From assembly GCA_000998805.1 (NCBI GenBank), contig LCFC01000003.1:1-39136 (forward strand): a DNA stretch of 39,136 bases, in the 5' to 3' direction. The notes beneath the pieces are model-generated. The model was not told where the DNA came from. It searched no databases and saw only the letters and a list, made by a program, of their open reading frames with translations. How positions within the stretch are numbered: position 1 is the first letter of the stretch; each line of letters opens with the position of its first letter. Shown here piece by piece: positions 12,010 to 33,567 of this stretch. The position numbers were made by a program, and so were the translations under genes. The DNA comes from Parcubacteria group bacterium GW2011_GWA2_43_11 (GTDB taxonomy: Bacteria; Patescibacteriota; Minisyncoccia; Phycocordibacterales; UBA12088).

Positions 12010-12267
12010 TAGGACCTACGCAAGCGGATGCGACCAATTTTTCTTACGACCAAAGGGAGTTAGAAAAATGAAGTACTCTTGTGGTGTAGTTCGAGGCGCG
12101 CAAACAAAATACTACGAGGCGTATTAGGTATACGGTGAGTAGTATTTTGTGTAGCACAACGATGAAATGCGACCAATTTTTCTTATGATTCGCCATTCGC
12201 CATCTGGCGAAGGCGGAGAATTAGAAAAATGAAGTACTCTTGTGGTGCGTCGTTTGCGTAGGTCCTA
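12010..12267. mobile_element. MITE-like element, family 1 copy A, with TIRs and 5-bp target-site duplication
   Basis: TAGGACCTACGCAAGCG ... CGTTTGCGTAGGTCCTA; flanked by TATCG (12005-12009) and TATCG (12268-12272). Confidence 0.75.
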
Positions 12268-13779: not shown

Positions 13780-13931
13780 GGGACTTACGCAAACGTATGC
13801 AGTTCGACTTGTCCGCCGTAGCTATAGCGAAGGTGGAGGCGCGCACGCAAAATTCTACGAAACGTATGAAAAATACGGTGAGTAGTATTTTGCGTAGTGC
13901 AACGAAGAAATGCGCCGTTTTCGTAAGTCCC
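13780..13931. mobile_element. MITE-like element, family 1 copy B
   Basis: GGGACTTACGCAAACG ... CGTTTTCGTAAGTCCC; shares TTCGACTTGTCCGCCGTAGC...GCGAAGGTGGAGGCG with copy C. Confidence 0.65.
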
Positions 13932-17760: not shown

Positions 17761-17877
17761 CCCGTTAGAGACAGGTCACGAAGTGACCGTCGATTAGATT
17801 AGTAATGTTTTGTATTTTTATCATATTCTTTATTTTGAAGTACACCTAGAAACATTGCTGTTTTGGTCTTTAACGGG
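17761..17877. mobile_element. Family 2 non-coding element, first of tandem pair
   Basis: CCCGTTAGAGACAGGTCACGAAGTGACCGTCG ... TTTTGGTCTTTAACGGG; left end abuts CAT start codon at 17758-17760; followed by ATTCAT. Confidence 0.75.
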
Positions 17878-17883
17878 ATTCAT

Positions 17884-29621: not shown

Positions 29622-29871
29622 TAGGACCTACACAAACGGCGCACCACCCCAGTACCACAAAGCTTCGCAATGGGTACGGGGCAGGCAAGAGTACTTCATT
29701 TTATACCCAAGGGCACAAGAACCATGCGCACGCGCAGGTAACGCCTTCGGCTAACAAAAATTGGTCGCATTTCGTTGTCAAACTTCACAAAATGTCGTTC
29801 AATGTACGGTGTGTACAGCTCACTCCATTTTGTTCGTTTTCCTAGAACTGCGCTCGCTTGCGTAAGTCCTA
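29622..29871. mobile_element. MITE-like element, family 1 copy D, inverted internal modules
   Basis: TAGGACCTACACAAACGGCGC ... GCGCTCGCTTGCGTAAGTCCTA; internal AGTACTTCATTTTATA and ACAAAAATTGGTCGCATTTCGTTG are reverse complements of copy A modules. Confidence 0.65.
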
Positions 29872-29918
29872 CTTTATATAAAAACTCCATTTTAAAACTG
29901 AAAGGGGAGTTTTTTGAG

Positions 29919-30481: not shown

Positions 30482-31675
30482 ATGACTAGAATAAAAATTA
30501 TTGGTATCACCATAGTAAGCATCCTGCTTTTAACTGGCACGTTGTATATAGTATCTAACAAAATACTTTTAGACAGTTACCGAAATATTGAACACGACCA
30601 GATGGTACAACATCTCATTCGCGTAGATAGTGCTGTTAAGAATTTTCAATCTAACCTCGGTATAAAGCTTCGAGATTGGTCACAATGGGACGATACCTTT
30701 CAGTTTGTTTCTGACCGAAATGAAGAATATGTTACATCAAACTTGGCTGTAACAACACTCCAAAATCTGGAAATAAACTTCATAGGTTTTTTTGACATAC
30801 AAGGAGGACTTATATTTTCAGTGGGAACTTCGCTAACTGAAGAACAGGAAATTCCTTCTGAGTCCATAATGCGTGAAGTTGCTTCAAAAGTACTCACACC
30901 ACCATCACCTTCGGAATTCAGTGGTGTACTTGAAGTACAAGGCAAAATACTCTTTATCGAAGTACAGACAATTAAAAAAACCTCAGGTGAGGGTTACGTC
31001 GGAAACATGCTGTTTGGCCGTTATCTTGATGAATCGGTAGTGACGGAACTAGGGGAACTAACACAGCTTGATTTAACGTTCACACAATTGCATGGTCAGG
31101 ATCTTCTTTCTCAAGATCTTACGGAAATTATCGAAGATATTTCAGCTAACAAAGGATACCACATACACGAATTTTCAGAACAGAATATTGCAGGATATAC
31201 TGTAATTACCAGCACACAAAAGGAAGTTCTTGGAATTTTTAAGGTTCTTAGAGAACGTCAAGTGTATCTGCAAGGTAAAAACACCGTATTCACGTTTGTG
31301 ATAATTGCAAGCTGTGCCATACTTCTTTTTGGTATCGTTATTCTTATCTTCTTTGAGTATCTCCTTTTGCATCGTCTATCGGTCTTGAGTAAAGAGGTAA
31401 AAGAAATCTCAATACGTGATTTGCAAAACACTCGTGTACACGAACACGGAAATGATGAAATAGGCACATTAGCGACAAGCATAAACGACTTACTACAAGA
31501 AGTAACTCGGGCCCAAGAAGATGAAAAAAAGGCGCAAGAACTTGAAAAGGAAGTCAGTATAAAGCTACAAAAAAGTCTTGAGGAAACACAGGAAATGAAC
31601 AGATTGATGGTTGGTCGTGAACTAAAAATGATAGAGCTAAAAAAAGAACTCGAACAAGCACAAAAAAAATCATAG
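30482..31675 (+). CDS. CHASE4-like sensor protein with HAMP and coiled-coil, no output domain
   Basis: TM, extracytoplasmic LRDWSQWDDTFQFVSDRNEEYVTSNL (CHASE4-like), second TM, HAMP LSKEVKEISIRDLQNTRVHEHGNDEIGTLATSINDLLQEV, then coil to stop. Confidence 0.8.
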   Translation: MTRIKIIGITIVSILLLTGTLYIVSNKILLDSYRNIEHDQMVQHLIRVDSAVKNFQSNLGIKLRDWSQWDDTFQFVSDRNEEYVTSNLAVTTLQNLEINFIGFFDIQGGLIFSVGTSLTEEQEIPSESIMREVASKVLTPPSPSEFSGVLEVQGKILFIEVQTIKKTSGEGYVGNMLFGRYLDESVVTELGELTQLDLTFTQLHGQDLLSQDLTEIIEDISANKGYHIHEFSEQNIAGYTVITSTQKEVLGIFKVLRERQVYLQGKNTVFTFVIIASCAILLFGIVILIFFEYLLLHRLSVLSKEVKEISIRDLQNTRVHEHGNDEIGTLATSINDLLQEVTRAQEDEKKAQELEKEVSIKLQKSLEETQEMNRLMVGRELKMIELKKELEQAQKKS

Positions 31676-31732: not shown

Positions 31733-32101
31733 ATGAAGCTCACAAGATATTCTGTTTCTACCCTTCTCATCTTTTCAGTTAATGGTATGTTCGTGGTAGC
31801 TGCCTGCTATGCACTCATCTACGCCCAGTGGTCAACATTGTTTATTGTGGCGCAAGGGACCGTCTTAAATTACGCACCATTTTTTCTTGAAAAAAAGTAT
31901 TCCCTTCACACCCCTCGTGAAATTCATGCAAGTATTTCACTTTTTGTATTTGGCTCCTTTATCCTCGGTGAGGTGCAGAACTTTTATAATACGATATGGT
32001 GGTGGGATGCTCTTCTGCACTTTAGTGCTGGATACATGCTCACTGTCATTGCACTCATTATGCTTTCTGTCGTATTTACCTACCGAACGTTTGGTTACTA
32101 A
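31733..32101 (+). pseudogene. Multi-TM membrane protein gene apparently interrupted by an inverted copy of a creD segment
   Basis: MKLTRYSVSTLLIFSVNGMFV...WWWDALLHFSAGYMLTVIALIMLSVVF then 79-bp foreign segment with stop; ASLLASFHGWNYFKKKTKPSALIEKIIRDG may be the displaced 3' end. Confidence 0.55.
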
Positions 32102-32149
32102 AGAAGGATTTGAGGCAACGTGGAATGTGTCTTCTTTTGGAAGGAGTTA
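32071..32149 (+). repeat. 79-bp perfect inverted repeat, copy 1
   Basis: CGTATTTACCTACCGAACGTTTGG...CTTCTTTTGGAAGGAGTTA, reverse complement of 32834-32912. Confidence 0.95.
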
Positions 32150-32268
32150 GCTTCCCTTCTCGCATCATTTCATGGATGGAATTACTTCAAAAAGAAAACC
32201 AAACCAAGCGCGTTGATAGAAAAAATAATTAGAGATGGTGTTCAAAAAAATCAGATGTACTCTTAAAT

Positions 32269-33567
32269 TTATTTCCACAAATTACTACTATCATCAGTTG
32301 CGGAAAGTTTCGGTGCTGTATTGGTAAACCAATCAATGTCTCGAGTGAGGTACATGACACCTGCGATAAGCAAAAAGATGAGGGCCGAACCAAAGAGAAG
32401 GGCGTAATCTTCAAGTTTAAGCACTACATACATAAAACCATAGAGCACACAGAGAAGTGCGGCAACATACCCCGCCCGTGCCCTTTCTTTAAGAATGTTC
32501 ATGCTGTATGTGGTGATGAGTATTATGGTCAGCACGGTTGCAAGTATGTAAGCGTACAAGAATCCAATATGCTCTGTGAGTGACAAGAGAAGGAGATAAA
32601 ACAATGCAAGAGACGCACCAACAAGTAAGTACTGTACGGGATGAAGACGAATCTTGGTTAATGTTTCAAAAAGAAAAAATGCTGTAAATGTGATGAGAAT
32701 AAAAAGTACCGCGTACTTAACGCTTCTGAAAACTTGTGTGTACATGCCTACCCCTTCATAAAGCCCTACCCCAAACTGTGAGTTCATAAGCATGTCTATG
32801 TTTACTCCCCCATCACTTTGCCAGTGTTGCGGATAACTCCTTCCAAAAGAAGACACATTCCACGTTGCCTCAAATCCTTCTTTAGTAACCAAACGTTCGG
32901 TAGGTAAATACGCACCCACAAACTCAGGACTATCCCATACGGAAGATGCTCGTACCACCGTCTCACTTCCTACAGGGACAAATAGAGCACGGTCACTTCC
33001 CTTTACCTCAAGTTCAAAAGAAAATGGATACTCTGTGGCGCTTTTCGACAATGGGACAAACGCATGGACGCCGAAACTTTCAAAAAAATCAACCATAGTC
33101 CCTGGGTAAAATGACGTATTGAGATTGTTCCAAGAAAGAGCCAGTTGTTTTTCAATACTTCGTGTATCTGACAATGAGACGACCAGTTTTGGTTGCACTG
33201 TTAGTAGGTTTTTGGGAATATCCGAGGCAGAGAATGATCCATGTACGGTGATTTTTTCTGTATACACCACAGAATCAAAAATACCTCTGCTTCGAATCTC
33301 AGGAACTAAAAAACTTTCGATTTCCAAATCTTTCGGAAGTACGTACGTAACCAAAGATTCTTTTTCTTTTTGCGGAGTCTCAAACACGAGCACTGGGCCA
33401 AGCATCGTTTGAGAACTCCCCCAACTCTGCGCTATCTCTTGCAGAACTTGTGTGTAACGATGTTCACGTTCCATTACCAAACCAAGCACAAGGTAGCTTG
33501 CAACAAGACAGATAATGGCAATAAAGCCAATGCCAAATAGTTTTTTTGAGACGCTGTGTGTATTCAT
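32269..33567 (-). CDS. creD: CreD-like inner membrane protein
   Basis: ORF 483 aa, likely start MNTHSVSKKLFGIGF; PTERLVTKEGFEATWNVSSFGRSYPQ; C-terminal TM block HPVQYLLVGASLALFYLLLLSLTEHIGFLYAYILA. Confidence 0.88.
   Translation of the reverse strand: MNTHSVSKKLFGIGFIAIICLVASYLVLGLVMEREHRYTQVLQEIAQSWGSSQTMLGPVLVFETPQKEKESLVTYVLPKDLEIESFLVPEIRSRGIFDSVVYTEKITVHGSFSASDIPKNLLTVQPKLVVSLSDTRSIEKQLALSWNNLNTSFYPGTMVDFFESFGVHAFVPLSKSATEYPFSFELEVKGSDRALFVPVGSETVVRASSVWDSPEFVGAYLPTERLVTKEGFEATWNVSSFGRSYPQHWQSDGGVNIDMLMNSQFGVGLYEGVGMYTQVFRSVKYAVLFILITFTAFFLFETLTKIRLHPVQYLLVGASLALFYLLLLSLTEHIGFLYAYILATVLTIILITTYSMNILKERARAGYVAALLCVLYGFMYVVLKLEDYALLFGSALIFLLIAGVMYLTRDIDWFTNTAPKLSATDDSSNLWK
32834..32912 (-). 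repeat. 79-bp perfect inverted repeat, copy 2 (inside creD)
   Basis: Encodes AYLPTERLVTKEGFEATWNVSSFGRSY of CreD. Confidence 0.95.

Follow-up and report, generated by a model that had tools for sequence, protein, structure and literature searches.

The closest described systems are mutations in which a strand leaves its template, copies nearby sequence in inverted orientation, and then returns. The four-point model of template switching follows the pattern L->1, 2->3 (inverted) and 4->R, and perfect inverted repeats often result; in the great-ape set of such events, the copied tract has a median length of 12 and a maximum of 128 (PMC7954356). Work in E. coli describes inverted template switches that come in pairs and show microhomology, as well as inversions that carry small losses or gains at their ends; these events have been read as switches inside one fork in which one to two kb of single strand is exposed (PMC3161906). 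A second group of E. coli events perfects an existing imperfect hairpin (PMC7202029). In yeast, the templated insertions described in an excerpt of PMC11724301 are mostly foldback copies of about 5-34 bp.

We analyzed a stretch of 39,136 nucleotides (the window) from Parcubacteria group bacterium GW2011_GWA2_43_11 (contig LCFC01000003.1) in which a segment of a creD-like gene recurs, inverted, in the membrane-protein gene that faces it (named 31733 after its first position). We consider it very probable that a single local templated-replacement mutation, a template switch, wrecked the membrane-protein gene. The features of the locus are as follows.

31733 to 32080, plus strand: surviving 5' part of the broken membrane-protein gene (116 codons, 91% identical to residues 1-116 of the orthologue in the sister species, G002).
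32071 to 32080, plus strand: left junction zone, CGTATTTACC, with TTTACC common to the sister's intact gene and the donor in the window (6 nt, up to 10).
32071 to 32149, plus strand: inverted copy of the creD segment on the recipient side, matching the reverse complement of 32834-32912 at every position; the sister species lacks it and has 57 codons there instead.
32150 to 32266, plus strand: surviving 3' remnant in the original frame, with its own stop (90% identical to residues 172-211 of the orthologue).
32150 to 32833, no strand: spacer of 684 bp, in which the membrane gene's 3' remnant is followed by the 3' half of creD, in the ancestral orientation and collinear with the sister species.
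32269 to 33567, minus strand: intact creD-like gene that converges on the broken one (432 aa from ATG, PF06123, 89% identical to the sister's gene over its full length).
32834 to 32912, minus strand: donor segment within creD, found at the same place in the sister's creD with 91% identity.

The first-pass annotation had reported a perfect 79-bp inverted duplication with sharp edges and a 684-bp spacing. Indeed, the two arms are complementary at 79 of 79 nucleotides, and the first bases past each edge differ between them. No inverted repeat in the window is longer than this pair, the runner-up being a 20-nt hairpin, and by our own arithmetic (about 7.7e8 position pairs times 4^-79 per pair) the chance expectation for a 79-nt match is about 1e-39. 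In the draft assembly (47 contigs, 929 kb, 77% complete), the 79-mer occurs twice, both times at the creD/31733 locus. Elsewhere in the window, and in a sample of about 236 kb drawn from 10 further contigs, no second spaced inverted duplication of comparable length turned up; spaced inverted matches in these sequences reach 26 nt at most.

The creD copy of the segment had been described as in frame, and it is: creD reads through 32834-32912 without interruption (YLPTERLVTKEGFEATWNVSSFGRS). The gene matches the Pfam CreD family (PF06123) with an E-value of 5.2e-127 and 424.7 bits (gathering cut-off 23) over profile positions 2-427 of 428, and its longest reading frame, from GTG 33720, has 483 aa. 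Outside the genus, relatives of this CreD are mostly from Verrucomicrobia, Lentisphaerae, and Proteobacteria (creD loci L060-L121), and of 35 genomes sampled from the rest of the order, only 1 gave a creD match; this suggests that creD may have entered the present Parcubacteria genus by horizontal transfer.

The direction of the change comes from the sister species, Parcubacteria group bacterium GW2011_GWD2_42_14 (contig LCCS01000007.1; about 89% protein identity). Its creD lies in the same place and orientation and is 89% identical over 432 residues, and its convergent membrane gene is intact (212 codons) and carries no inverted creD copy. The flanking DNA on both sides of the altered block is collinear between the two genomes at about 86% identity, and the difference is a single block: 171 nt in the sister (65717-65887, 57 codons) against 69 nt in the window (32081-32149) plus the shared zone at 32071-32080. 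Because the donor segment sits at the same place in the sister's creD, the creD copy is ancestral; because the sister has an unbroken membrane gene and a creD without the inverted copy, the alignment identifies creD as the donor and the membrane gene as the recipient damaged by replacement. We rejected the reverse direction, with the membrane gene as donor to creD, since the sister's creD has the segment and its membrane gene does not. The two 79-nt copies in the window are 100% identical, whereas the same segment differs by about 9% between the two genomes, and the alignment places the event after the split of the window species and its sister. In this way the donor, the recipient, the boundaries and sizes of the exchanged pieces, the direction, and the recency relative to the sister split are all established. 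The first-pass annotation had offered a recent template switch with gene damage as one of its readings and had called for comparison of the locus in related genomes. The unmutated sister locus, with 171 nt removed and 69-79 nt put in on the window side, supports that reading; it lacks the inverted arrangement, and we met no orthologue that combines the same arrangement with an intact short gene. The ancestral state is read from this sister, the sole close relative with the gene, together with distant homologues, and the dependence on one close relative and the draft state of the genome count against the template-switch explanation.

The damage to the membrane-protein gene is of two kinds: two stops lie within the inserted piece, and 57 codons are gone. 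The first-pass annotation had the 31733 gene losing its frame at its copy of the segment. It is true that the gene runs into the copy in another frame and there meets a stop, TAA 32099-32101, so that the present reading frame encodes 122 aa; the shift is not lasting, as the remnant at 32150-32266 returns to the N-terminal frame, where it translates as ASLLASFHGWNYFKKKTKPSALIEKIIRDGVQKNQMYS* with its stop codon at 32264-32266. Judging from the intact orthologue, the full-length product is a membrane protein some 212 residues long; the same taxonomic order contains about ten homologues of full length, at 27-38% identity. Neither Pfam nor NCBIfam names a family for the broken gene: the 31733-32101 reading frame has no match above cut-off, and the intact orthologue has no match to DUF2238 (PF09997) at the Pfam gathering score. 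Two distant homologues match DUF2238 weakly, below the cut-off, so the family would be at most a distant relative of DUF2238.

Of the 13 columns that are nearly invariant in the family alignment, 10 fall within the missing 57 codons (F134, W142, E143, E146, D150, Q158, D163, T164, M165, and D167 in the sister's numbering), so the loss is damaging. In the surviving 5' part, 27 synonymous and 11 non-synonymous codon changes separate the window from the sister, which suggests that the gene was constrained until recently. Neither remnant carries further stops or frameshifts, as would be expected for a young event. These observations are consistent with 31733 being a recently broken, formerly constrained gene.

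The junctions bear on how the replacement arose. At the left junction (marked by a slash), the window gene reads CTGTCGTATTTACC/TACCG, the creD strand reads GGTGCGTATTTACC/TACCG, and the sister gene reads CTGTTGTGTTTACC/GGCAA. The microhomology here is at least 6 nt (TTTACC), and it is 10 nt if the ancestor of the window already carried CGTATTTACC. At the right junction, the window reads GGAGTTA/GCTTCCC, the donor GGAGTTA/TCCGC, and the sister AGTATT/GCTTCCC, a microhomology of 0-3 nt at most, as judged on the sister sequence and not on the exact ancestor of the window. This scarcity or lack of right-hand microhomology with the sister sequence counts against a template switch, as does the 79-nt tract, which is long for short-range switches; given the maximum of 128 in the great-ape set (PMC7954356), the tract is long yet within range.

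In the mechanism that we favor, synthesis during copying or repair of the membrane gene would have left its template at about 32071-32080, where the gene and the creD strand share TTTACC, and jumped about 0.7-0.9 kb onto the opposite strand within the adjacent creD. There 69-79 nt of creD would have been copied inverted before a return to the original template 171 nt further along (now 32150). The outcome would be what we see: creD unharmed as the donor, the membrane-protein gene destroyed, and a perfect inverted repeat of 79 bp linking the two. Judged on its junctions and alignment, the product is of the type left by two template switches at short range (the four-point or FoSTeS/MMBIR class) or by templated break repair. 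At the level of the polymerase, the mechanism would be either a template switch at a fork or an MMBIR-like break repair with a templated insert; break repair of this kind would leave the same product.

The locus agrees closely with the four-point switches of Loytynoja and Goldman, as described in PMC7954356, in which outer sequence is followed by an inverted nearby copy and then by outer sequence again, and in which a perfect inverted repeat accompanies a block replacement. The tract is an exact reverse complement of nearby sequence (79/79, 684 bp away), the donor is unchanged and the recipient is collinear with its ancestor on both sides in the alignment with the sister, and the sister lineage, with its gene intact, has no inverted copy. 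Compared with that catalogue (PMC7954356), the present case comes from a Parcubacteria draft and, with 79 nt and a jump of about 0.7-0.9 kb, is bigger than most, and we saw no pre-existing quasipalindrome beyond the shared TTTACC. Like FoSTeS/MMBIR in starving E. coli (PMC3161906), it would involve two inverted switches and small deletions or insertions at the ends, with microhomology seen at the left junction, and the jump of 0.7-0.9 kb would fit the one to two kb over which single strand is exposed in that model. In contrast to the events in starving cells (PMC3161906), there is no amplification, there are no REP sequences at the junctions, and only the product is seen. As in the hairpin-perfecting E. 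coli events (PMC7202029), a nascent strand that copies in inverted orientation gives a perfect inverted repeat; here, however, the copy took the place of unrelated coding sequence. At double-strand breaks, templated inverted insertions, as far as the excerpt of PMC11724301 describes them, likewise copy nearby DNA inverted into the repaired site; compared with the short foldback copies that predominate there, 79 bp came here from about 0.7 kb away and 171 nt were lost.

We infer that the sequence occurs in living cells and not in the assembly alone. If the arrangement came instead from a chimera or from a wrong join in the assembly graph, the living genome would keep an intact gene. The assembly is a draft of 47 contigs, sequence by itself cannot separate a mutation in a single genome from a chimera, and chimeric by-products are a known problem of strand-displacement amplification, according to an excerpt of PMC9484634. 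An artefact of this kind would need two independent, precise junctions within 79 bp of one consensus, along with the removal of 171 nt, and it would have to leave flanks that are collinear with the sister genome on both sides. It would also have to be the only one of its kind in the window and the roughly 236 kb sampled from 10 other contigs, and we found no second intact copy of the membrane gene, or of the lost segment, elsewhere in the draft genome. Taken together, these points make an assembly or library artefact unlikely.

In principle, a perfect inverted repeat of 79 bp would suffice for homologous inversion to happen occasionally. The first-pass annotation had accordingly raised the idea of an invertible, phase-variable segment, in which the arms recombine, 32150-32833 flips, and the 3' ends of the two genes alternate. 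We simulated this flip. The 31733 reading frame stays at 122 aa, since the repeat contains its stop whichever way the segment lies, and the longest creD reading frame (from GTG 33720) falls from 483 to 295 codons. The only new long reading frame is a 275-codon fusion in which an unrelated, out-of-frame start is joined to the C-terminus of creD. Inversion thus cuts creD and neither exchanges nor restores a functional gene. Nor did a Pfam scan of 24 genes in the window turn up a recombinase domain, the remaining reading frames of the 39-kb contig having been judged by reading, and the sister species lacks the repeat. The flip simulation and the lack of recombinase domains in the scanned proteins led us to reject an invertible switch, which we regard as very improbable; we see no sign of a designed switch, though homologous flips may occur at a low rate. 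A related idea, that the repeat born from a template switch now recombines in the population and reversibly truncates creD (295 of 483 codons) as a form of phase variation, strikes us as very improbable too.

We also asked whether a mobile or repeated element had transposed or inserted at 32071-32149, given that the genome carries a high-copy element of about 125 bp. The 79-mer, with its two genomic copies both at this locus, does not behave as such an element; the target was replaced rather than interrupted, with no target duplication at 32071-32149, and the 79-nt piece is creD coding sequence that is found in the sister's creD. We rejected this explanation on the copy number of the 79-mer and give it almost no credence. 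A structured-RNA reading was dropped as well, since no Rfam family occurs anywhere in the window.

The window holds several other repeats and further differences from the sister species. One copy of the element of about 125 bp lies at 29766-29872 (flanks about 29740-29890). It has terminal inverted repeats (TAGGACTTACGNAAACGG ... CCGTTTNCGTAAGTCCTA), and inside it is a long hairpin whose two arms both carry compensatory changes (10 of 28 pairs). The element has about 40 matches each in this genome (G000) and in the sister, no match above 30 bp in the four other genomes of the genus that we searched, and no match in Rfam; several copies are flanked by TA on each side, which suggests a MITE-like element. 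The copy at 29786-29871 and its counterpart in the sister locus (L014, 1567-1652) lie in opposite orientation at different places in the same intergenic region, where the element appears to have moved or been gained independently. An open-ended repetitive protein of 1061 aa is encoded at 2-3184 on the minus strand (positions 1-925 and 1783-2707 are 72.6% identical in DNA). Further repeats with 76-95% identity lie between genes or at gene edges (17788-17883 with 17938-18033; 8642-8723; 12093-12171; 13800-13929; 24644-24778) and perhaps represent other small repeat families. Upstream of the broken gene lies a gene for a CHASE4-HAMP protein (30482-31675) that has no counterpart at the sister locus; the flanks there meet within about 20 bp, and from this alignment, it is a lineage-specific gain or loss.

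The mutation is of a known, ordinary kind, a new instance that reveals no new system. As a natural case it is unusually clean: the donor, the recipient, and the ancestral state of a complex one-step mutation are all known, here in an uncultured member of the Parcubacteria. It also carries a warning for annotators: one copying error can yield both a short 'gene' and a perfect inverted repeat.
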